A DNA stretch of 22,344 nt from a virus, in the IMG/VR virus record IMGVR_UViG_3300044627_000222, positions 1 through 22,344 of that record. The stretch is one strand, 5' to 3'. Below, piece after piece: positions 3,617 to 15,122 of this stretch. A model generated the notes under the pieces. That model saw nothing but the letters and a program-made list of their open reading frames with translations. It was not told the origin of the DNA and did no database searches. The stretch's first letter is position 1, and each line of letters opens with the position of its first letter. A program made the position numbers and the translations under genes.

Positions 3617-4231
3617 TTATGCTAAGAAATACATACCCGTGAAATAAAAGAAATCGGCTGTTTGTAATGTGTGGGGACTGTTGTGATCCATGCGGGCCAT
3701 CGTGCCATTTGACTGAGGATAGTAAAGTTCAGCGGTAAGGCTTGCGCTATTAAAGTCCATGTAAAGCAGGTAATGATCGCCGCTTGCGATGTGGTGCAGA
3801 CCGCCAGTTACAAGATTGTTTATGTTGGGCTGCAAACCTGTGGGTAGAGTAAGCGAATAATTACCTGTGCCAAAGTTTGTCACGGTTGTGCAGTTAACCC
3901 TGATTGTAAAGAAAACCATTTTGCCAACCCTGGAATACGATCCTGTGGCGGGTGTGCCTGTGTAGGCCAGTCCTGTGCCAGTCCAGGTGGATGTGAAAGC
4001 GATCTTAGGAACGCCAAGATAATCATCAGCAAAGACAACCCACTCGGTTCCGTTCCAATATTTCATTTGATCAGGCGTGTTATCAAAGATGATGTCGCCA
4101 GTTCGTGGATAGGTTGGCTCGGTTGCCACATCGGGTGCGGTAAAGCGCTGCGCCGTTTCTAACTTACGAAGTCGGCTGTCTAGATCGGCAAACATCTGCT
4201 GCAAGGCTGGCGGTTGATTTATGTAGGCCAT
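3617..4231 (-). CDS. Tail fibre / minor tail protein
   Basis: This 204-residue protein has an N-terminal helix suited to trimerisation (LQQMFADLDSRLRKLETAQR), then a YPRTGDIIFDNTPDQMKYWN motif. That motif belongs to a short module often found in phage fibres (GD-[IL]-[IY]-[FY] ... K-x-[WY]-[ND]-G-x-x-W). The remaining 130 residues are Thr/Gly/Asn-rich and predicted all beta, a likely receptor-contacting head. It starts on a TAATG overlap with the tail hub gene, with GGAG 7 nt upstream, and is the last structural gene before lysis. A host-contacting role follows from composition and position; no specific receptor can be named. Confidence 0.7.
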   Translation of the reverse strand: MAYINQPPALQQMFADLDSRLRKLETAQRFTAPDVATEPTYPRTGDIIFDNTPDQMKYWNGTEWVVFADDYLGVPKIAFTSTWTGTGLAYTGTPATGSYSRVGKMVFFTIRVNCTTVTNFGTGNYSLTLPTGLQPNINNLVTGGLHHIASGDHYLLYMDFNSASLTAELYYPQSNGTMARMDHNSPHTLQTADFFYFTGMYFLA

Positions 4232-5589: not shown

Positions 5590-6114
5590 TTATGAGTTTT
5601 TGATTCCGTAGAGTGTAAAAGTTGAGTATTCCATAATTAAAGTTCCAGTAATAGGAATAAAAGTTATTGAAGTAATTGCCGTAGTTTGGTTATACAAAGC
5701 CGCACCTATGTTCATAAACGAAGGCGCAGCATTATTTTCGCCTGTGCTATCAACAGAAGATGTTTTTTGATTACTACCTGCATAATTAGGAATATACAAT
5801 TCGGTAGCACTAAAAGTAGAAGCAGTTGCGGTATTGCCTGATACATATATATTTTCATCATTATACGGATTGTAAGAAGTACTTTGTGCTGCCGTGCCTG
5901 TGCTAGTAAGTTGTTTCCCCGTATATCTTGCTGATGTTGTATCACTATTGTAATAATATCCAAGACCATCAGTAACAGAACTACGATTAGTTCTAGCCGA
6001 GATTTTTACAACTAAGTCTGTAAATGTCGCAGGTATAGATGTGAGTGAAACACTACTTATACCACCTGAGCCAACGGTGTAAGTGCTACCAATTTGAATA
6101 TATGTATTAGCCAT
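5590..6114 (-). CDS. Receptor-binding-type beta protein, paralogue 1
   Basis: This 174-residue protein is Ser/Thr/Tyr/Asn-rich and predicted all beta. It shares a signature with the next two genes: SIPATFTDLVV near residue 27, a YNSD strand, an NYA motif (IPNYAGSN), ALYNQTTAITSITF, and the terminal YSTFTLYGIK. This repeated layout is frequent in tail-spike or fibre-head proteins of aquatic phages. The coding DNA is visibly AT-richer than the surrounding tail genes, which suggests recent exchange. It starts on a TAATG overlap with paralogue 2. It lacks coiled-coil or attachment domains of its own, so it probably docks on a fibre or decorates the tail tip (inference). Confidence 0.68.
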   Translation of the reverse strand: MANTYIQIGSTYTVGSGGISSVSLTSIPATFTDLVVKISARTNRSSVTDGLGYYYNSDTTSARYTGKQLTSTGTAAQSTSYNPYNDENIYVSGNTATASTFSATELYIPNYAGSNQKTSSVDSTGENNAAPSFMNIGAALYNQTTAITSITFIPITGTLIMEYSTFTLYGIKNS

Positions 6115-6608
6115 TATGCCGCCTTAATTCCGTATAAAGTTATATTAGTTCCAGCCGCAATAGAAGCCAATGAAAATAATATAGAAATGCTGTTAATTGC
6201 CGCAGTACTTCTATAAAGACCAATGCGGGCTTCCACATTTGAAGAGGACACGCTAGATGACCTACTTAGTATTGCTTTATTTGTTGTGGTATTTGCGTAA
6301 TTATTAATGTGCATTTGAACAACAGTATATGTTGAAGTAGATGAAGCATAAAAAGTATAGCCTGAGTCATTAGTACTGCGGTATGAGTTATAGTCTGTTC
6401 CATTGCCAACTAATGGTGTGCCTGAATAAAGAGAACTATTATCTCCGTTAAATCTGACTCTAATAAAATCGCCATTATTAGCAGAATAAAGAACATTCGC
6501 TATAACCACTAAATCTGTATAAGTAGCAGGAATTGAAGATAAAGTTATTGTTGCCGTACTTGCCCCTGTGTGAGTAACCGTTTGAATTGGTTCGTATGTA
6601 AGTGCCAT
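6114..6608 (-). CDS. Receptor-binding-type beta protein, paralogue 2
   Basis: This 164-residue protein follows the same plan as its neighbours: TLSSIPATYTDLVVIAN, an FNGD strand, HINNYANTTTNK, a GLYRSTAAINSISI strand pair, and the end motif NITLYGIK. It is predicted all beta with no signal or membrane segment. It starts one base after the stop of paralogue 3 and shares a TAATG with paralogue 1, so the three are translated as a set. The central loops differ greatly among the three while the framing strands are retained, as expected for a scaffold that varies its contact surface. Confidence 0.68.
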   Translation of the reverse strand: MALTYEPIQTVTHTGASTATITLSSIPATYTDLVVIANVLYSANNGDFIRVRFNGDNSSLYSGTPLVGNGTDYNSYRSTNDSGYTFYASSTSTYTVVQMHINNYANTTTNKAILSRSSSVSSSNVEARIGLYRSTAAINSISILFSLASIAAGTNITLYGIKAA

Positions 6609-7184
6609 TTATTTAATCCCATACAGAGCGAAAGATGAGTATTGCTGCCATTGTGAACCGTCAGACACATTAAAAGATATTGATGTGATTGCATTAGTGT
6701 TTCTCCAAGAACCAGAATACAATCCAACCGAACCACCATAGCCCGCAACGGTTCCATTTATATCGTTACCCATTAGACAGCGTGCCGTTTTATATTTATT
6801 GGTATTAGCATAATCTAATATGTCTATAATGGCTGTTGTAAAATATGTAACAGAAGTTCCAGGTTGTCCGACTCCAATACTTGTTGTACTCGCTGAACCA
6901 CCAACCTGCACTCCAGATGTAAGGTTTCCACCGCCCTGTCCAATTATTTCGTGGTTGGAGTAATTTGACCCTGAATCAGAATTGAATGTCATATTAGTTC
7001 CGCTTACTGGGTAGGTTGCTCTGTTACCACGCCAAAATCCTCTGATTTGTAAGTGCTTGTAAGTACTTGGAATACTAGAAAATGTAATTGTAGTTTGAGC
7101 AGATGAAAGAGTATAGGTTTGAATTGAGTCAAACGCGGCACTTATTGTTTGCATAGAAGAAGCAATAACCCCAAGAATAGGCAT
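6609..7184 (-). CDS. Receptor-binding-type beta protein, paralogue 3
   Basis: The ATG at 7184 overlaps the stop of the preceding fibre gene (TAATG) and gives 191 residues; the frame is open upstream to 7235, but that lies inside the fibre gene. After about 20 residues it has the shared plan: ITFSSIPSTYKHLQIRGFWR, FNSDSGSNYSNHEI, DILDYANTNKYKTARC, GLYSGSWRNTNAITSISF and YSSFALYGIK. Of the three it is nearest to the version I recall from metagenomic phages (the SSIPSTYKHLxI and DYANTNKYKT motifs). A Gly-rich loop region (GQGGGNLTSGVQVGGSAS) lies in the centre. It is probably a tail-tip receptor-binding or fibre-head domain. Confidence 0.68.
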   Translation of the reverse strand: MPILGVIASSMQTISAAFDSIQTYTLSSAQTTITFSSIPSTYKHLQIRGFWRGNRATYPVSGTNMTFNSDSGSNYSNHEIIGQGGGNLTSGVQVGGSASTTSIGVGQPGTSVTYFTTAIIDILDYANTNKYKTARCLMGNDINGTVAGYGGSVGLYSGSWRNTNAITSISFNVSDGSQWQQYSSFALYGIK

Positions 7185-7927
7185 TAGGCAATATCTCCAA
7201 ACACATACCAAAGATCCGTTCCTGCTTTTACGCAAGTTGCGGCGCTATAACGCACTCTTAGTTTAGGAGCAGCAGCAGTTGCGCCAGTTGATTGGATCGT
7301 TGTAGTGCCGCTTGTGACAGCCTGAATTGTGGTTTGACCTGCACCAATTTGTAGCACATTTATTTGTGTGCCAATTGGGAAAGCCACAGAAGCGTTAGTC
7401 GGAATAGAAAATGTGTTAGCCGAGGCGTTATCCATAGTGACAACTTGACTGTTATTAGCAAGAACCGCCGTATAAGAAGCGGTTTCGGCGTCAAAGCCTA
7501 AGTTTATCTTTGCGTCAGTTAAAGTTTTATTAGTAAAAGTTTCAGTTCCAGTTAATGAGGCAAGAGTTACAGAACCTGTTGGAAGCGTAACCGTTCCGCT
7601 GTTGCTGATGCTTGAAATAACAGGAGTGGTTAAAGTCTTATTAGTAAGCGTTTGCGCTGTTGTAAGATCAGCCGTAACAGCCGTGTCAATTGAGACTGTA
7701 ACAGTTCCACTTGTTCCGCCTCCGCTAAGACCAGTTCCAGCAGTTACACCTTCAATGTCGCCCGCGCCTTGGTAAGCCAAAGAGGTCCACGCCGTTGATC
7801 CATTTCCAATCTTAACTTTGCCTGTATCGGTCTCAAAACCCCACTCGCCAGCGGCAAGCGTTGGATTAGTTGAAGTCCATTGAGACGCTGTTCCCCTACG
7901 AACTTGAATCTGTGTTACAACTGCCAT
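7184..7927 (-). CDS. Tail fibre with Mtd-type N-terminal domain and LTNKTL repeats
   Basis: This 247-residue protein has three parts. Residues 1-50 (VTQIQVRRGTASQWTSTNP; then AAGEWGFETDTGKVKIGNG) match the N-terminal domain of phage major tropism determinants, which anchors fibres to the tail tip. The middle holds a GLSGGGTSG stretch and two copies of LTNKTL / FTNKTL, a known fibre-shaft repeat. The C-terminal 100 residues form a beta cap (VVTMDNASANTFSIP...GDIA) that is also present in the larger fibre at 8178-9218. The start at 7927 overlaps the stop of the preceding small gene. The resemblance to the Mtd domain does not imply a diversity-generating retroelement; none is visible. Confidence 0.78.
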   Translation of the reverse strand: MAVVTQIQVRRGTASQWTSTNPTLAAGEWGFETDTGKVKIGNGSTAWTSLAYQGAGDIEGVTAGTGLSGGGTSGTVTVSIDTAVTADLTTAQTLTNKTLTTPVISSISNSGTVTLPTGSVTLASLTGTETFTNKTLTDAKINLGFDAETASYTAVLANNSQVVTMDNASANTFSIPTNASVAFPIGTQINVLQIGAGQTTIQAVTSGTTTIQSTGATAAAPKLRVRYSAATCVKAGTDLWYVFGDIA

Positions 7928-8181
7928 CAGGGAGTTCCTCCGTTTACGGTCTGTGTTGAAGTCGTTGTTGGATCGCCACCATTATAAGGCGCAATGCTAT
8001 CAAACACACCTGCATCTACTTCAGTCAATGGCGGAACGCCCATGGCGGACCAGGCTGCGCCTGTGTAAACCTTTAAGCCTTCGGTTGTGTTGTAGTAGAG
8101 ATCGCCAGCCCTGAGAGTTGGCGTATTAATGTCCGTGGCTGAAACGGGAACATTGGTGGGAGTTAATGCTAGGCGACTCAT
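7927..8181 (-). CDS. Small tail-fibre-associated protein
   Basis: This 84-residue protein is dominated by the LRAGDLYYNTTEGLKVYTGA motif followed by AWSAMG, the short module seen in many phage fibres (GDLYYNT-x-x-x-L-x-V-x-x-G-x-x-W). A similar module occurs in the fibre-like protein at 3617-4231 (GDIIFDNTPDQMKYWNGTEW). It overlaps the preceding fibre by 4 nt (ATGA at 8178-8181) and shares its stop with the next start. It may be a fibre linker, or a split-off N-terminal part of the following fibre. No other domain is visible. Confidence 0.65.
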   Translation of the reverse strand: MSRLALTPTNVPVSATDINTPTLRAGDLYYNTTEGLKVYTGAAWSAMGVPPLTEVDAGVFDSIAPYNGGDPTTTSTQTVNGGTP

Positions 8182-9218
8182 GAAATGTCACCCATGATCA
8201 ACCATGTGTCGGTCGCGGTTTGAACTGCCGTGGCTGTTGAATATTGCGCTCTTAACTTAGGAGCCGTTGCGGTTGCACCCGTTGAAGCAATAGTCACGCC
8301 TCCTGCGCCTGAAATTGTTACTTGGCCCGCTCCCATTTGCGCAATGTTTATCTGAGCGCCTACTGGATAAGCCACGCTCGAATTCAAGGGAATGGTTGTG
8401 GCGATAGCGCTGGCGTTTGTTTGCGTTACAAGTTTACCGTTGTCGGCTAGAACAGTTGTGTAAGTGGTTCCTGTTTGAGCATTTATGCCTAAATTTATAA
8501 GCGGCGAAGTTAATGTTTTATTAGTAAGAGTTTGAGTTCCAGTTAAAGTGACTACTCCAGTCAAAGTATTACTTGCTGCGTCAATAGTTTTATTAGTCAA
8601 AGTTTGTGCCGTTGTTAGATCGGCAGTCACGGCTGTGTTGATAGCCAAAGTTACTGATCCGCTAGTGCCACCACCTGAAAGTCCTGTGCCAGCCACAACC
8701 GCGCTGATGTCACCTGACTCAGGAATGTTTGTGGTTACAAGAACGCGTGTGTCTGTAATGTTGGCGTTTGTGATTGCAGTTGCGCCCGCACCAACGGCTA
8801 CAGTTGCCAGGGTGATTGAGTTGGCTGGAAGCGATGGAGCCACAGGAGATCCCGCAGGGGTTCCCGCAACAACCTGAAGGACAACATTGTTTAGCGATCC
8901 TGTGTAATACGCGTCATTTACAGTTGCGCAAACAAGATCAATGCGTGGGTTAGTTGGGTTTGCGGTGTTCAAAGAAAGAACGCTGCTTGCATCGTTGTAG
9001 GTTACATAAGTTCCCATGTTGGCTTGCGTAGTTCCAACAATTGCTGCCCAACCTGATGCAACAACAACAGAAAGACCAGGAGGTGTGTTTTGCGTGACAA
9101 GTAAAGAAGCGCTGTTGATAATACCTGTGGTGGCCCAAAGCGCCTGGGTTGTAAGGCGATCGTTTTCAGCAGGGTGAGAGCCGTTCTGCAACCAACTGGG
9201 CGGGGTTCTAACTGTCAT
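8178..9218 (-). CDS. Tail fibre / baseplate-type minor tail protein
   Basis: This 346-residue protein starts at an ATG with AGGAGAATAA upstream. Residues 1-160 (RTPPSWLQNGSHPAENDRL; then GLSVVVASGWAAIVG; later NPRIDLVCATV) resemble the N-terminal part of phage baseplate or appendage proteins that attach to the distal tail. The middle carries GTGLSGGGTSG and LTNKTI / LTNKTL shaft repeats, and the end is a beta cap finishing APKLRAQYSTATAVQTATD-TWLIMGDIS. Middle and cap are paralogous to the fibre at 7184-7927. It directly follows the distal tail protein gene. Attachment through the N-terminus and host contact through the C-terminus are inferred. Confidence 0.75.
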   Translation of the reverse strand: MTVRTPPSWLQNGSHPAENDRLTTQALWATTGIINSASLLVTQNTPPGLSVVVASGWAAIVGTTQANMGTYVTYNDASSVLSLNTANPTNPRIDLVCATVNDAYYTGSLNNVVLQVVAGTPAGSPVAPSLPANSITLATVAVGAGATAITNANITDTRVLVTTNIPESGDISAVVAGTGLSGGGTSGSVTLAINTAVTADLTTAQTLTNKTIDAASNTLTGVVTLTGTQTLTNKTLTSPLINLGINAQTGTTYTTVLADNGKLVTQTNASAIATTIPLNSSVAYPVGAQINIAQMGAGQVTISGAGGVTIASTGATATAPKLRAQYSTATAVQTATDTWLIMGDIS

Positions 9219-9226
9219 TTATTCTC

Positions 9227-10090
9227 CTAAATGTAAGCCGATTGCCAAGTCACAGTTGCACCTGTCACACCCACTACTGTACTACCTGCGTTGCCTGTTA
9301 GGTAGAACAAGTTAGTACCTGGTTGCGCAGAGAACCATTGACCCGAAGCCAGCAAGTTTCGAGCAGGGTTTCCGTTTAAAGTGATTAGTTTATTGTATAA
9401 GTCTACGGTTAAGAAATCTGTGTTAGTGAGTGAACAAGTAAAGTTCAGAGCCAAGTTTTCAGTTTGGTTGCCCAAGATCGGGTTAATGATTGGGCCGTTT
9501 AACACAATGGTTGGATAGGTGTCGGTCCAGCCGTTGTTCTCAATGTTGGTCGTAATTAATACTGATCCGCCGCCATACAGTAGGTTATAAACGCGGTTAT
9601 AAGTTCTGCCTCCAGGCGGGGTGTAGTTCAGAGTTGCGGTTTGAGTGTTGGAGTCGTAATACCGAGGATCAGGGCAAAAGAAACTGACCTGGGCCACGAT
9701 GTAGCCGTAGGTGTAGTTAGGGTCCACAGAGGCACTCAAGCCTCGTACACGGGCGTTTATGACCTGTTCGCCTGCTGCATTGGACAAGATAAAGTAAAGA
9801 GGCGTTGTGCCGCTTGCCTGTGGCAAAAGGGCCAACTGAAGAGTGTTGAAATTTGTTTGAGCCGATGCCCCGCTGTTAGCCAAGATCTGAACCAGCATTG
9901 TAATGTATCGGCCGCCAAGGAAGTCACGGCCCGAGAACATACCGTCTGCGTAGCCTCTGTTGTCATCTTGAGATCGGATGCCAGGCAAACCTTCTAACCC
10001 ATCAACGCTCAAGATTTGATAAGGCGATCCTGTTCCGCCAAAGACCTGGTTGTTGAATGAGAACGAATAATTGGCTATTACTGCTGGCAT
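9227..10090 (-). CDS. Distal tail protein (Dit-like, siphovirus tail component)
   Basis: This 287-residue protein fits the siphovirus distal tail protein family. The N-terminal ring-forming beta domain includes GLEGLPGIRSQDDNRGYADG and FLGGRYITMLVQI, followed by a helix with FNTLQLALLPQA; FFCPDPRYYDS near residue 140 is a typical hinge between the two domains. The C-terminal half is a galectin-like beta region (GGSVLITTNIENNGWTDTYP). Dit forms the ring that closes the tail tube and receives hub and fibres. It sits next to the tape measure gene, as usual, and starts on a TGATG overlap with its stop. Confidence 0.85.
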   Translation of the reverse strand: MPAVIANYSFSFNNQVFGGTGSPYQILSVDGLEGLPGIRSQDDNRGYADGMFSGRDFLGGRYITMLVQILANSGASAQTNFNTLQLALLPQASGTTPLYFILSNAAGEQVINARVRGLSASVDPNYTYGYIVAQVSFFCPDPRYYDSNTQTATLNYTPPGGRTYNRVYNLLYGGGSVLITTNIENNGWTDTYPTIVLNGPIINPILGNQTENLALNFTCSLTNTDFLTVDLYNKLITLNGNPARNLLASGQWFSAQPGTNLFYLTGNAGSTVVGVTGATVTWQSAYI

Positions 10091-13050
10091 CAGGTGACCA
10101 TAGCCCCTCTTGGAGCGCCGCCGCCGCCTCCACTATTTAATGTAATTGTTCGAGCCTTAATTGAAGCAGCACCAATTGCGCCGCTTTCACCAGCAGCCAA
10201 CTTGCTAGGTGCGGTAGGAACTACAACATTTCCAAACTTGATTGCGTTCACCACGCTAGTGGTTGTTGCATAAGGATCAGAAAGATTGACTCCAGTAATA
10301 CTGATGTTGTTGTTTGTGGTTGGACCATAAGGAGTGTTGCCAACTCCACCCTTTGAGTTAGTACCACCTGTCACAAATGGTGTGTTTGTAATCTTTGCAG
10401 AAGCGGCAGATGAATAAGCGCTGCTTGCAGAAGCCAAGGCAGCAGTTGCCGCCGCTACCGCAGCCAATTGCGCTTTAAGGGCGGCTAACTTTTGCGCTGT
10501 GGTTGCAGAAATCTCATCAATTGCCTTTTGATAAGCAAGTTGAGCATCAACCAAAGCCTTCTGTAGAACCTTTTGGGCTTCGGCTAATCCTTCATTGAGT
10601 TTCTTTTGTGCTTCCTCGCGGGCCTTTTGTAATATTGCAGCAGACTCAGCAAGAGAAGCCTCAAGGCGTGCTTTGGCTTCCGCGATCGCGGTCTGTAGTT
10701 GTGTGGCCGCCTCAAGCATACGAGCATCGCGTTCAACCTTGGCTTCGGTCATAGCGCGGGCATACTCGGCGTTGGCTTCTGCCAAGGAGTTCATTAACTC
10801 CATGTCAACTTCGGCCAAAGAGTTCTTGAGATCAATTGCTACTTGATCGTAAGCCTGGCGCAATTCAGATGTGGCTAGGTTTGCTCCGTTGCTCATGGAC
10901 TTAGCCAAAGCGTCTAAGCCTGTGTCTTGGATGCCTTCGAGATCCATAAAGGTCTCGCGGATTTCTTTCTGTTGTTCAGGTGATGATTTCTTTAATTCAT
11001 CGATCATCTGATTGCCAACTTCAGGTCCAGCCTTTACAACTTGCTCAATAAAGGTCTGTGCGTAACCTTCGCCCGCAAGATAAGCAGCGCCTTGTTGTAG
11101 TTTCTTAGCCGCTTCCAGTTCCTTTTTCATTTGCTCCAGGAACCCGCCTGAAGTTTTACCCTTGAAAGCCTCGGTCAAACTGAAAGATGTACCTGATGCA
11201 AAAGCGCTACGCAAGCGATCCACAGACTGCTGGATAATTGATGCTTCTTTTTCAGCAGCCTTAACGCGCAGATCAGCAGACTTGTCAGCCGCCGCCTTTT
11301 TTAGATCCACCAGTTTTCTTTGAAGGGTTGCCTCAATGTCTGCGGTTTTCTTTGCATAGTCTTTAGCAATGTCCACCATGGCTTGGGTGTGTGCCTTCTG
11401 AGCATCAGTTACAGCGGCATCATAAGTTTTCTGTGCATCGGCTCGGCGCTCGCGGTCTGCTTCCTCGGCTTCTGCAATTGCTTCACCGTAGGCTTTGTGT
11501 AGATCAGCAACCTTCTCTTGATACTTTTCATGCGCCTCAATGGACTTTTCAATAAATGTTGTTTCAATATCAAGCATCTTTTCAGCGCGATCTTTTGCTT
11601 CCTCGGCCGCTTTCTTTGCCGCTTCTGTCACTTTTGGATCAACTACGCCAGGCTTGCCTTTTCCACCCTTAGTTGCTTTCTCTACCTTCTTGCCGTTCTT
11701 TTCAGCAGCCGCACCCATCTTGTCTAAACCAGCAGATAATTCTTTGGCTTTCTTTGACGCGGCATTGGCAAAGTCGCTGATACCGTTCAAGCCTTTATTC
11801 ATTAAGTCAAGTCCTGCTTTTGCGTACTTGCCCACTCCAGGAAGTTTAGAAAGCGCCAAAAGTAAAAGACGAAGTGGCCCTGTTGAGATTTTCATGATCG
11901 CTTCAAAGACCTGGCCAACCATAGGTATGATTGAAGCAAAAGCATTGAGAGCAACTTTGGCCACAGAAATCACGGCTTTTCTAAAGGACTCATTGCTGTT
12001 CCATAGTTTCACCATGGCAGCAACAAGAAGCCCCACGGCAATAACAATCAAGCCGATCGGGTTCAGTTTCTGAACCAAGTTGAGAATTTTCTGTTGAATA
12101 ATTGCTGCCTTTACAAACACGGTGTAAGCACCCCAAGCAGCGCCAAGCACTCCAACCGTGATGGCAAAGGCTTTGACTTCGGCTTGGTTGTTCTTAAAGA
12201 ACTCACCGATCTTAGTTAAAACAGGAATAAGTAATTCTAATATTTTTAACAAACCTCTAAAGGCTGGCATAAGCGCCTCGCCCAACGCTACCTTTGCATC
12301 CTCAATTTTGGCTTGCAGGGTTTTCATGGTGTTTGCAGTTCCATCGGCGGTGCGTGCGTAGTCACCCTGGGCAAGTGCTGTGTCTTTTAAGATCAATGAG
12401 TAAGCAGCCTGGGACTTAATCGCAACAGGCAAAGTTCCACTTGTTGTTTTAATCAAACCCATGCGCAGGGCTTCCTCTTTAAGACGAACTTCTGAAAGGG
12501 CAACGCCGAACTTCTTTAGCGGTTCTGTTTCACCTGAAAGACCTGATCGCAAAGCGGTGATGGCTTGATCGATGGATGTGTTGTTAAAGGAAGCCATGTC
12601 TGCGGCCAACTGAACAAGATTAGTTGACATCTTTTGGGCTTCGCCTTGGCCCAAACCAAACGCCTGGAATAAGTTGCCGTAAGTTCCAGCGGCTTCTAAA
12701 GCAGCCTGGTTAGAAATACCAAGGTTCTGCGCGGCGCTTGCGCCAAAGGCTTCTACTTCGGCAGCGCCTTCGCCAAAGACAACTCGTACCTTTGATAGAG
12801 ACTCTTCCATGTTGCTGGCTGCCATAATTGACTCTTTGGCAAATGCTGCAACTTGAGATGCGGCAAAAGTAGCACCAAGTGCAGCGCCCACCTTTTTCAG
12901 GTTGCCCACAAAGTTGGTCATGCCACCGCTGGCCTTTTTTACATTGTCATCTACACCCTTGATCGCGTTTTGCGCTTGGGCAAGCCCCGCTTTTAACTGA
13001 GTTACATCTGCTTGTATCTGAATGAGGATTGGCGGGATTGTTGATGCCAT
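10090..13050 (-). CDS. Tape measure protein
   Basis: This 986-residue protein is the longest in the window. Residues 1-250 match the TP901-type tape measure core (ADVTQLKAGLAQAQ; ESIMAASNMEESLSKVRVVF; NTSIDQAITALRSGLSGETE; LKKFGVALSE). Hydrophobic segments lie around 262-282 (the AFRGLLKILELLIPVLTK helix), 294-320 and 332-348 (IGLIVIAVGLLVAAMV). Residues about 475-610 and 735-880 are long Ala/Lys/Glu/Asp-rich coiled coils; the C-terminus is Gly-rich. Tape measures set tail length and leave the tube at DNA ejection. By the usual rule of about 1.5 angstrom per residue the tail would be near 150 nm. GAGGAG precedes the start. Confidence 0.93.
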   Translation of the reverse strand: MASTIPPILIQIQADVTQLKAGLAQAQNAIKGVDDNVKKASGGMTNFVGNLKKVGAALGATFAASQVAAFAKESIMAASNMEESLSKVRVVFGEGAAEVEAFGASAAQNLGISNQAALEAAGTYGNLFQAFGLGQGEAQKMSTNLVQLAADMASFNNTSIDQAITALRSGLSGETEPLKKFGVALSEVRLKEEALRMGLIKTTSGTLPVAIKSQAAYSLILKDTALAQGDYARTADGTANTMKTLQAKIEDAKVALGEALMPAFRGLLKILELLIPVLTKIGEFFKNNQAEVKAFAITVGVLGAAWGAYTVFVKAAIIQQKILNLVQKLNPIGLIVIAVGLLVAAMVKLWNSNESFRKAVISVAKVALNAFASIIPMVGQVFEAIMKISTGPLRLLLLALSKLPGVGKYAKAGLDLMNKGLNGISDFANAASKKAKELSAGLDKMGAAAEKNGKKVEKATKGGKGKPGVVDPKVTEAAKKAAEEAKDRAEKMLDIETTFIEKSIEAHEKYQEKVADLHKAYGEAIAEAEEADRERRADAQKTYDAAVTDAQKAHTQAMVDIAKDYAKKTADIEATLQRKLVDLKKAAADKSADLRVKAAEKEASIIQQSVDRLRSAFASGTSFSLTEAFKGKTSGGFLEQMKKELEAAKKLQQGAAYLAGEGYAQTFIEQVVKAGPEVGNQMIDELKKSSPEQQKEIRETFMDLEGIQDTGLDALAKSMSNGANLATSELRQAYDQVAIDLKNSLAEVDMELMNSLAEANAEYARAMTEAKVERDARMLEAATQLQTAIAEAKARLEASLAESAAILQKAREEAQKKLNEGLAEAQKVLQKALVDAQLAYQKAIDEISATTAQKLAALKAQLAAVAAATAALASASSAYSSAASAKITNTPFVTGGTNSKGGVGNTPYGPTTNNNISITGVNLSDPYATTTSVVNAIKFGNVVVPTAPSKLAAGESGAIGAASIKARTITLNSGGGGGAPRGAMVT

Positions 13051-13053
13051 CTA

Positions 13054-13488
13054 TTAACTCCTCAAATACGATGAAAATGCGCCAATGAATGTCCTACTGA
13101 GTGCGCCTGATTGTTTCAGACTTTCTGCGGCAGGTACAAGATACGGGTATTTTACTCCTGATTTCCATTCAGGAAGCCCCATTTCAACGGCGCGTGCATA
13201 AACCATCGAAGCGCCAACTTCTGCAACATAACTTTGTCCAAAGCCGATCTTGGTTTGCGAGTAAATAGAACGCCGCAAGTTACCAGTCATAACATTGGGA
13301 CCAGGACCTGTGCCTGGAATATGTCCCTGGCCTCTAGGGTGCGTTCCTGTATTTGCATTCTTTTTGGCTTGGCGTTCAACTGCGGCCGCAGCCATACCGA
13401 TCGCAAAGCGAGCGGCGTTGTTTACATCGGCTTCTGTTTTACCAAGAGCGGCCAAGACTTTAGGCAGGTTTGTGAATTCAAATGTCAC
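13054..13488 (-). CDS. HK97 gp10-like neck/tail protein
   Basis: This 144-residue protein resembles the HK97 gp10 family (head-tail joining or tail completion). Typical are the N-terminal helix with Ala-rich AARFAIGMAAAAVERQAKKN, the GNLRRSIYSQTK motif after a Gly/Pro loop, YARAVEMGLPEWK (compare YA-x-x-x-E-x-G), YPYLVPAAES and a C-terminal helix. The start is a GTG at 13488 whose last two bases begin the TGA that ends the frameshifted tail chaperone (GTGA). The two are therefore coupled, and the GTG choice is supported by that overlap. Its place between the chaperone and the tape measure, rather than beside the connector genes, is unusual. Confidence 0.75.
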   Translation of the reverse strand: MTFEFTNLPKVLAALGKTEADVNNAARFAIGMAAAAVERQAKKNANTGTHPRGQGHIPGTGPGPNVMTGNLRRSIYSQTKIGFGQSYVAEVGASMVYARAVEMGLPEWKSGVKYPYLVPAAESLKQSGALSRTFIGAFSSYLRS

Positions 13489-14029
13489 TCACGCACCTCG
13501 CTTTGCATCTTAGTTACAGTTGCTGCTATTCCCAACAACCAATCAGCGGTTCCTGCGGGTAGATCATCCACTTGCGCGGGTGTCCATCCAAAGCGATCAG
13601 CGAACTGAAAGTAGTACCACTCCTCATCGGGGTAATCTAAATCAGGTCGGCGCTCGCCACCCTCAAGCCACCACCTTAAGCGTTCGAGTTGTCGGTACCC
13701 GCTTTTGGGTCTTGCTCGTTCTCAGGTGTGTCGCCCAAGGAAGGGAACAGAAACTTCTGCGCATCCTTTGTAGCGTCAACCAAAGCATCGTAATCTTTCA
13801 TTTCTAACTCATCAAGGTTGTCGATTTTAAGAGCGGGAATCAAAAGGTCTAGAGACCATTCCTCGATCAACATCGCAATCAACGCATCGCCTAATGCAAG
13901 AGCGCGAGTTAAATCTCCGCCTTCAACATCTGCGGTTTTCAGTACACGCTTTCGATCTTTAACGCGTAATGATTTAGGGTCCTTCAAAGTCACGGTTGCG
14001 CCTGAAGGTAGTGTTAACTTTTCTGACAT
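13485..14029 (-). CDS. Tail assembly chaperone, long frameshifted form (gpGT-like)
   Basis: Codons are read from 14029 down to the AAA ending at 13703; a -1 slip at CCCAAAA (13709-13703) re-reads base 13703 and continues to the TGA at 13487-13485. The result is 109 + 72 = 181 residues. The second part begins SGYRQLERLRWWLEGGERRP and includes EEWYYFQFADRFGW and WLLGIAATVTK, the usual composition of the T domain, rich in Trp, Tyr and acidic residues. This frame contains no stop over its 72 codons and fills a stretch that otherwise holds no gene. In siphoviruses the long form recruits the tape measure during tail-tube assembly. No experimental evidence is available here. Confidence 0.85.
13676..14029 (-). 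CDS. Tail assembly chaperone, short form (gpG-like)
   Basis: This 117-residue product of the unshifted frame begins MSEKLTLPSGATVTLKDPKS and continues with LRVKDRKRVLK, then ALALGDALIAMLIEEWSLDL and a helical region ending with an acidic tail. The N-terminal strand pair and the central helices are typical of actinophage tail assembly chaperones encoded between the major tail and tape measure genes. AGGAGG precedes the ATG at 14029. It should be the abundant form, with the -1 shifted product the minor one. It acts in the cytoplasm and is absent from mature virions in well-studied relatives. Confidence 0.85.
   Translation of the reverse strand: MSEKLTLPSGATVTLKDPKSLRVKDRKRVLKTADVEGGDLTRALALGDALIAMLIEEWSLDLLIPALKIDNLDELEMKDYDALVDATKDAQKFLFPSLGDTPENEQDPKAGTDNSNA
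13703..13709 (-). promoter_or_regulatory. -1 ribosomal frameshift slippery heptamer CCCAAAA
   Basis: On the minus strand, C-CCA-AAA lies in phase with the short chaperone frame (Asp-Pro-Lys codons), matching the X-XXY-YYZ rule. It occurs 8 codons before the short-form stop, and slipping by -1 opens exactly the frame that encodes the T-like domain. I see no clear stimulatory hairpin or upstream Shine-Dalgarno, only partial complementarity in the following 30 nt. Confidence 0.82.
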
Positions 14030-14072
14030 TTTTGCCTCCTAATTGTTTGCCTTCCTAAATCATAACCTATAG

Positions 14073-14130
14073 AGAGCAGGTGGGTGGGATGGCGGGAAGG
14101 CGGTCGCCATCAACCGATCCCACCTGCTCT
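14073..14130 (-). terminator. Strong nested stem-loop after the major tail gene
   Basis: A perfect 12-bp inverted repeat (AGAGCAGGTGGG at 14073-14084, CCCACCTGCTCT at 14119-14130) encloses a second 6-bp stem (ATGGCG 14089-14094, CGCCAT 14105-14110). It fills most of the 106-nt gap between the major tail protein stop and the chaperone start. Read on the minus strand the stem is followed by ATAGGTTATG-type sequence, not a clean U-run. A partial terminator, an RNA processing site or a 3'-end stabiliser that sets the tail-tube to chaperone ratio is more likely than full termination. Confidence 0.6.
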
Positions 14131-14135
14131 TGGAC

Positions 14136-15122
14136 TTAGGCGTAGGTTCCTGATGCTTTCGCGTTCTGTAGAACCCACTTGATTGGTGCAAAACCACCTG
14201 TTGATCCAGCGTCAGTTGTGTTGCCTTGGCCGTTTAGATCAATTGAAACCTGAACGAAGTCCTCGCCGCGCTCAATAACGGCTGCTGTGTAAGCGCCCTT
14301 AGTGATTGTGGCTTGGATTTGAACTGCCGCAGCGCCAGCGCCGTATGCCCAGTTAAGAACAATGGCTGGTTGCGAGTTGTTGAGGTAACGAGTTAGTTCT
14401 GTGTCATCTTCCATGATGAATGTGATCTTGCCTGTTACTTCCAAAGGCCCCAAGAAAATGTTGTATGGGTTTTGAGTGTTGCTGATGCCGTAAACAGGTG
14501 TCACGGATCGCGCCATGTCGATGTTGCCTGTCATAGAGTTGGAAACCGCAGCGCCTCCAATGGAAACTGTGCCGCGCCAAACCTGAGTAGGCAGAATGGT
14601 TGAGAAGGTTGGAGTTGGATCTGCGACTGCGCTTGATGCCCAGCCTGTTGTCTTTGTGTCGTACTCAAGCATTCCGTCAGCGTTAAACTTCAAAGAGAAG
14701 TCTGAGAACTGGCATCCTGGATATGAGCGAACATCAGCAGAATAGAAGTCAGTCAATGTGTATGAGATTGGCTGATCATCTACGCCTGATGTAAGGCTGT
14801 TCTTTAGAGAAATTGTGTGTGTGAAAGGTGCTGATGCGCCTGTTGTAGCAACAGAACCAAGAAGTCCTGCAAGACCGTATCCAACTGTGTCGGCAAATAC
14901 TGCGCCGCCAAAGTCAAAAGTCGAGCGTGTGCGACCTTGTAGATAAGCGTAATTCACAACATTGGAACCACGAAGCCCTGTGTCGTAGAGTGGATCTACT
15001 ACATCAACAGGCTTAATGTTGTCCTTTGCTACTGGGATAAAATCTGTAGGTGCAACGATCGTACCCTTGGTTGCTTCTTTAGCGATACCCAGGTACGAGC
15101 GTACGGATTGCTGTACTGACAT
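14136..15122 (-). CDS. Major tail protein (tail tube)
   Basis: This 328-residue protein begins MSVQQSVRSYLGIAKEATKG and has the tail-tube style: an N-terminal GIAKEATKGTIVAPT-DFIPV stretch, a central GGAVFADTVGYGLAGLLGSV helix, YSADVRSYPGCQFSDFSLKF, and a C-terminal part with ITFIMEDDTELTRYLNNSQP and DLNGQGN-type strands. It polymerises into the hollow tube. The position before the tail assembly chaperone and tape measure agrees. It starts on a TAATG overlap with the small upstream gene, has AAGGAG upstream, and is followed by the nested stem-loop at 14073-14130, consistent with high expression. No added Ig-like domain is obvious at its C-terminus. Confidence 0.88.
   Translation of the reverse strand: MSVQQSVRSYLGIAKEATKGTIVAPTDFIPVAKDNIKPVDVVDPLYDTGLRGSNVVNYAYLQGRTRSTFDFGGAVFADTVGYGLAGLLGSVATTGASAPFTHTISLKNSLTSGVDDQPISYTLTDFYSADVRSYPGCQFSDFSLKFNADGMLEYDTKTTGWASSAVADPTPTFSTILPTQVWRGTVSIGGAAVSNSMTGNIDMARSVTPVYGISNTQNPYNIFLGPLEVTGKITFIMEDDTELTRYLNNSQPAIVLNWAYGAGAAAVQIQATITKGAYTAAVIERGEDFVQVSIDLNGQGNTTDAGSTGGFAPIKWVLQNAKASGTYA

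Follow-up and report, generated by a model that had tools for sequence, protein, structure and literature searches.

A probable −1 frameshift and a candidate leader RNA at the tail assembly chaperone gene of a phage group known from metagenomes

Making two forms of one tail protein by a −1 slip of the ribosome is a well-known phage strategy. In phage lambda (PMC5009743), a −1 shift near the end of G adds T as a C-terminal extension, and gpG and gpGT serve as a chaperone for the tape measure and tube proteins.

Here we describe a locus in a 22,344-base virus record, IMGVR_UViG_3300044627_000222, which was analysed over its whole length (the window). The gene, on the minus strand, very probably encodes a two-form (G and GT) tail assembly chaperone by means of a −1 slip on C_CCA_AAA. 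The virus itself is probably a tailed siphovirus and its host probably an actinobacterium, as suggested by a relative on a contig binned as an Actinomycetota MAG, the single match in a genome collection, and by the actinophage matches of the tape measure protein. The locus comprises the following features.

14136..15122, minus strand: tail tube protein (PF18906 Phage_tube_2, E 4e-27)
14041-14035, minus strand: Shine-Dalgarno sequence of G, TAGGAGG
14029..13676, minus strand: G, 117 aa from an ATG start, the probable short form of the tail assembly chaperone
13709..13703, minus strand: slippery heptamer C_CCA_AAA, in phase in G and kept in relatives
13703..13485, minus strand: T, the −1 frame extension, 72 codons and TGA, supported by dN/dS and an AF2 model
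13499-13494, minus strand: Shine-Dalgarno sequence of the gp10-like gene, GAGGTG
13054..13488, minus strand: HK97-gp10/Neck1-like (tail completion) gene, GTG start (PF04883 E 5e-6, phrog_5 E 6e-11)
10090..13050, minus strand: tape measure protein (phrog_1535 E 3e-30, with actinophage tape measure matches)

The first C of CCCAAAA occupies codon position 3, frame 0 reading GAC CCA AAA, and 8 codons separate the heptamer from the TAA stop of G, just as a first-pass annotation of this DNA had described. The −1 frame opens 4 codons 5' of the heptamer and runs for 74 codons from it, so that the 72-codon frame proposed in the same annotation is indeed present and a slip would give a fusion of 181 aa (109 + 72). 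Of the 27 genes examined, no other has both an in-phase X_XXY_YYZ within its final 40 codons and a −1 frame that continues beyond the stop; a heptamer occurs in one more gene, whose −1 frame stops inside the gene. Stop-free stretches of 74 codons made up 123 of 9618 (1.3%) in the non-coding same-strand frames of the genes of the window.

T also fits closely between its neighbors. Its TGA (13487..13485) shares bases with the GTG (13488..13486) of the following gene, and a 187-base gap (13489-13675) would remain without it; both the stop/start overlap and the filling of an otherwise gene-free stretch had been noted at first pass. The same annotation saw such 4-base overlaps as the coupling style of the whole operon. 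Two others exist (2460-2463 and 8178-8181), but the overlaps are mostly of a single base (for example at 4231, 6114, 7927, 10090, 15122 and 15822). The gene directly after T is the HK97-gp10/Neck1-like gene and not the tape measure gene, giving the order tube, G/T, gp10-like, tape measure. Elsewhere, gp10-like genes usually precede the tube gene. We considered whether the frameshift doses the gp10-like gene through translational coupling and set this aside as a weak possibility. Coupling is not needed, because the gp10-like gene has its own Shine-Dalgarno sequence (−11.6 kcal/mol in the window, and −5 or better in 69% of the 96 relatives measured), though stop and start lie within 11 nt (in the relatives where this was measured, the gp10-like gene starts between −11 and +9 nt relative to the T stop).

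Elsewhere in the window, positions 5590-7235 hold three tandem, paralogue-like proteins of 164-208 aa with common SIPATYTDL and LYGIK motifs. The proteins at 7184-7927 and 8178-9218 have a long, similar C-terminal part with GTGLSGGGTSG and TLTNKTL stretches, suggesting from their sequences a duplication.

To collect relatives, viral contigs were scanned with the fusion, a fusion profile, T alone, G alone and a divergent member, and one genome collection was scanned in addition. This gave 326 loci including the window, many of them overlapping fetches of the same contigs; after three truncated loci were left out, the profiles found both G and T in 323, corresponding to 153 distinct sequences. 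Only the best 80 loci of each scan were returned, so the sample is biased to closer relatives. The tube gene lies 5' of G/T in 99 of 99 relatives with enough sequence and the tape measure gene 3' in 104 of 104, with the gp10-like gene present in 120 of 120 distinct relatives where the sequence extends far enough.

Conservation of the heptamer and of the T frame, which the first-pass annotation had proposed as a check, was evident across this set. T stands in the −1 relation to G in all 153 distinct sequences, and 152 have an in-phase slippery heptamer inside the G/T overlap (CCCAAAA in 137, CCCTTTC in 9 and CCCTTTA in 6). The distance from the end of CCCAAAA to the 0-frame stop is 8 codons in 134 sequences and 5 codons in 3. 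The sole exception (L024, 3014-3555) has no in-phase heptamer in the overlap, as its G ends early at a TAG in codon 92; its CCCAAAA and T are intact, and the TAG could be a sequencing error or mark a broken chaperone gene. The overlap spans 12-17 codons in most relatives, and the heptamer is the only invariant run within it. Where CCCAAAA has been lost, CCCTTTC or CCCTTTA stands in phase inside the open overlap. In three relatives (L074, L078 and L253), a TAG immediately 5' of CCCTTTC marks the opening of the −1 frame and only 7 codons are left before the 0-frame stop, so that a slip there is confined to CCCTTTC. Selection thus keeps slipperiness, not one particular heptamer, with CCCAAAA giving way to CCCTTTC or CCCTTTA in overlaps down to 7 codons.

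Selection on T was measured on 118 distinct CCCAAAA sequences, using 1500 random pairs at 65-97% identity and the 55 codons 3' of the slip. dN/dS in the T frame was 0.088 and no sequence had a stop there, the presence of such stops having been named at first pass as evidence against the frameshift. In the other two frames dN/dS was 1.69 and 1.92, and every one of the 118 sequences had stops there. T is under purifying selection in the −1 frame only. Its conservation starts near the slip, where S, R, L, RL and W residues are nearly invariant.

The heptamer codons themselves carry a second signal. Synonymous entropy of G averages 1.16 bits over 112 degenerate codon columns, and GAC, CCA and AAA show zero synonymous variation in 119 sequences (for GAC, in the 113 that encode D there). 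The third bases of GAC and CCA precede T translation; therefore, T coding cannot explain their constancy. Zero synonymous entropy was also found at four other G columns, three of them within the overlap or adjoining the heptamer, and at these three, dual coding or the slip site itself may be the cause.

The layout, the conservation of the heptamer and the selection on the T frame together support the programmed −1 frameshift and two-form chaperone put forward by the first-pass annotation, as far as sequence comparison can speak to it. The majority of ribosomes would end at TAA and yield G. A minority would undergo a tandem −1 slip, presumably at the heptamer, with the P-site tRNA-Pro moving from CCA to CCC and the A-site tRNA-Lys from AAA to AAA, thereby adding the 72-aa T. 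On the lambda model, G would form a coat on the tape measure protein, with T recruiting the tube subunits.

It is very unlikely that T is instead a separate protein made by internal initiation, without frameshifting. A T-frame ATG, GTG or TTG within 30 codons of the heptamer does occur in 61 of 152 distinct sequences, and gene 14 of Arthrobacter phage Sonali is annotated from such an internal start. The remaining 91 have none, however, and the window is among them: its first T-frame start, 46 codons past the heptamer start, would drop over half of T. Internal initiation also sits poorly with a conservation of T that begins near the slip, and leaves the synonymous constancy of GAC-CCA-AAA unexplained. 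Entry into the −1 frame by another route, either a slip of one tRNA at a different site of the overlap or a slipping RNA polymerase, seems to us just as improbable. Other routes may exist, since Arthrobacter phage Mufasa8, a remote relative, retains both frames but has no X_XXY_YYZ, and by sequence alone the 12-17-codon overlap of most relatives leaves room for other sites. Against this, the heptamer is the one invariant run there and a lost CCCAAAA is replaced by another heptamer, and four A in a row are few for slippage by the polymerase. That the split comes from faulty sequencing or assembly, or from decay of the gene, can practically be dismissed: single cases happen, as the premature TAG of L024 illustrates, but the same −1 relation in all 153 distinct sequences, which come from many contigs, and the purifying selection on T already refute this reading. 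A −1 slip at the heptamer is thus the reading we retain.

RNA folding 3' of the heptamer was assessed in 46 diverse relatives, with synonymous swaps that preserved all T residues and the codons of each column as the reference. The stretch 7-97 nt from the heptamer start was more stable than the swaps in 36 of the 46. Stretches of 60 nt starting 7, 22 and 37 nt from the heptamer start gave z values of −5.5, −7.7 and −6.0, and one starting at 52 nt gave −4.1; control stretches, taken from other parts of G and from T at 67 nt and beyond, ranged from +1.0 to −3.9. The largest helix excess joins positions 21-30 with 38-47, which is also the top covarying helix: its pair-count covariation score was matched by 3 or 4 of 500 shuffles, and every slid version scored lower. 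Pairs of the UACC/GGUG type extend this helix in many relatives, leaving a 5-nt spacer. The corresponding candidate in the window is as follows.

13697..13658, minus strand: candidate stimulatory stem-loop, 5-nt spacer from the heptamer, indicated by folding excess and covariation in relatives
13697-13694 with 13661-13658, minus strand: stem pairs UACC/GGUG
13688-13684 with 13666-13662, minus strand: stem pairs CUCGA/UUGAG

The remark at first pass that no obvious stimulatory structure is visible holds for the window, where the pairs are present (4 + 5) with z near 0 against dinucleotide shuffles; it does not hold at the family level, given the folding excess in the 46 relatives. RNAalifold gave no consensus structure when run on the aligned 46 sequences downstream of the heptamer. 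Another hairpin, spanning 47-79 nt, was discarded, its covariation being no higher than that of its slid versions. The excess of RNA folding just 3' of the heptamer is suggestive, relatedness being only partly controlled, and the stem-loop may help the slip.

Searches of G, T and GT against Pfam and PHROG models, and of GT by tblastn in named phages, gave no match, and a sequence search of the PDB returned only SKP1 fragments (E 0.05-0.12). Matches to chaperone families are usual, not defining, and tail assembly chaperones diverge widely. The AF2 model of G has a pLDDT of 78, its last 18 residues, where the slip site lies, being mostly disordered. In BFVD its matches were weak: the best was unnamed (E 1e-3), and several were named tail assembly chaperone (best E 5e-3). 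The top PDB match, also weak, was the HK97 tail assembly chaperone 2ob9 (E 0.41, prob 0.72). T is modeled as four helices with a pLDDT of 90, and a fold search with this model gave no convincing match. The position between the tube and tape measure genes fits a tail assembly chaperone, as does, weakly, the predicted fold of G. This would provide a likely name for two dark protein families, G and T, and for genes 13 and 14 of Sonali.

A second RNA element precedes G, with the following parts.

14129..14049, minus strand: candidate leader RNA of G, indicated by covariation and conservation
14129-14119 with 14084-14074, minus strand: helix P1
14111-14105 with 14094-14088, minus strand: helix P2, 7 bp
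14101-14095, minus strand: loop GCCTTCC, complementary to GGAAGGC at 14055-14049
14064-14059, minus strand: TATGAT, between the hairpin and GGAAGGC

The P2 loop is 10 nt long and ends in GCCTTCC, and GGAAGGC, the tail, lies about 25 nt 5' of the ATG, just upstream of the G Shine-Dalgarno sequence. In the window, the 106-nt spacer between the tube gene and G has a folding energy of −37.2 kcal/mol (z −2.4); across the 113 rows measured, the median is −38 and none lies above −20. P2 is paired in 88.0% of cells across 118 distinct regions, against 62.7% (sd 1.1) in shuffled ones, and its covariation score over 54 distinct cores is 0.604 against 0.174 (sd 0.021), a value reached by 0 of 500 shuffles and with slid versions at 0.155 at most. 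The statistics of P1 are weak, since its strands are alike among relatives (pairing strands across relatives still gives helices of at least 9 in 68%); it is P2 that carries the covariation. Position by position, the loop and tail heptamers complement each other in 114-117 of 117. In the relative L150 both sides have changed, to GCCTTCT/AGAAGGC, and another (L308) has lost the tail. From this complementarity, GCCTTCC and GGAAGGC likely form a pseudoknot. In 114 of 117, TAnnnT stands 5' of the tail, a motif that would fit the actinobacterial −10 of a putative internal promoter.

A pattern scan for the leader that was blind to G found at least 119 stretches, of which 80 were listed, with 75 loci that were new, some on known contigs. 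Among the matches listed, 74 of the 75 new loci have the leader directly 5' of G, and the remaining one is cut off after seven G-like residues. Rfam 15 gave no match at gathering, its four matches (E 2.4-4.3) all lying far below; no similar sequence to the leader DNA was found in named phages, and among the literature matches listed, none describes such an RNA or a pseudoknot preceding a tail chaperone gene. We also rejected the idea of an intrinsic terminator: the leader is not a general terminator, because a terminator scan of the window found none and the longest 3' T run is only 1-2 in 41 of 117.

The leader is thus a seemingly undescribed RNA, and its position suggests what it might do: it would tune how easily ribosomes reach G, how far transcripts or ribosomes read through out of the tube gene, or how the mRNA is processed. 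Whether the chaperone gene is under two RNA controls, a frameshift signal and an undescribed leader pseudoknot that sets the chaperone (and later genes) against the abundant tube protein, we regard as evenly balanced. A functional leader would represent a cis-element not yet described and belonging to a single phage gene, and the balance of tube protein and chaperone could then be approached directly with a reporter.

Set beside gpG/gpGT of lambda, the locus would share the −1 shift near the end of G, T as a C-terminal extension and a role as chaperone for the tape measure and tube proteins. Its heptamer is CCCAAAA, and it is set apart by the gp10-like gene between T and the tape measure gene, the candidate leader RNA before G, and a lack of similarity to Pfam and PHROG chaperone families. 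CCCAAAA was tied to a frameshift or to tail assembly in none of the matches listed from the open-access PMC literature. The best PDB match of the G model, the HK97 chaperone, is distant, at 12% identity and TM 0.46/0.49. Microbacterium phage Eden (NC_048017) has a frameshifted chaperone CDS, annotated as joined from two pieces, between tube and tape measure genes, and its tape measure protein is 36% identical to that of the window over a third; its G is not recognizably homologous (hhalign finds nothing) and no gp10-like gene is annotated in that place.

Two Arthrobacter phages, Sonali and Mufasa8, were found through the gp10-like protein, which they also carry. Genes 13-15 of Sonali (MK411746) follow the same order of tube, 13, 14, gp10-like and tape measure. 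In Sonali (L249 3166-3863), an in-phase CCCTTTT comes directly after a −1-frame TAG and the −1 frame runs on into gene 14; the resulting fusion matches the profile of the relatives over the end of G and the start of T (hhalign prob 89, E 2e-6). Genes 13 and 14 are annotated there as two hypothetical proteins, with the frameshift unannotated. Mufasa8 has the same gene order around its genes 13 and 14 (L250 2122-2822). A strong GC-rich hairpin also lies 3' of the tube gene and 5' of G in both phages (L249 3083-3165 and L250 2068-2136), without the GCCTTCC/GGAAGGC complement. Here a probable frameshift of a kind already well known in phages is described in a phage group known from metagenomes only; the novel part is the leader RNA.
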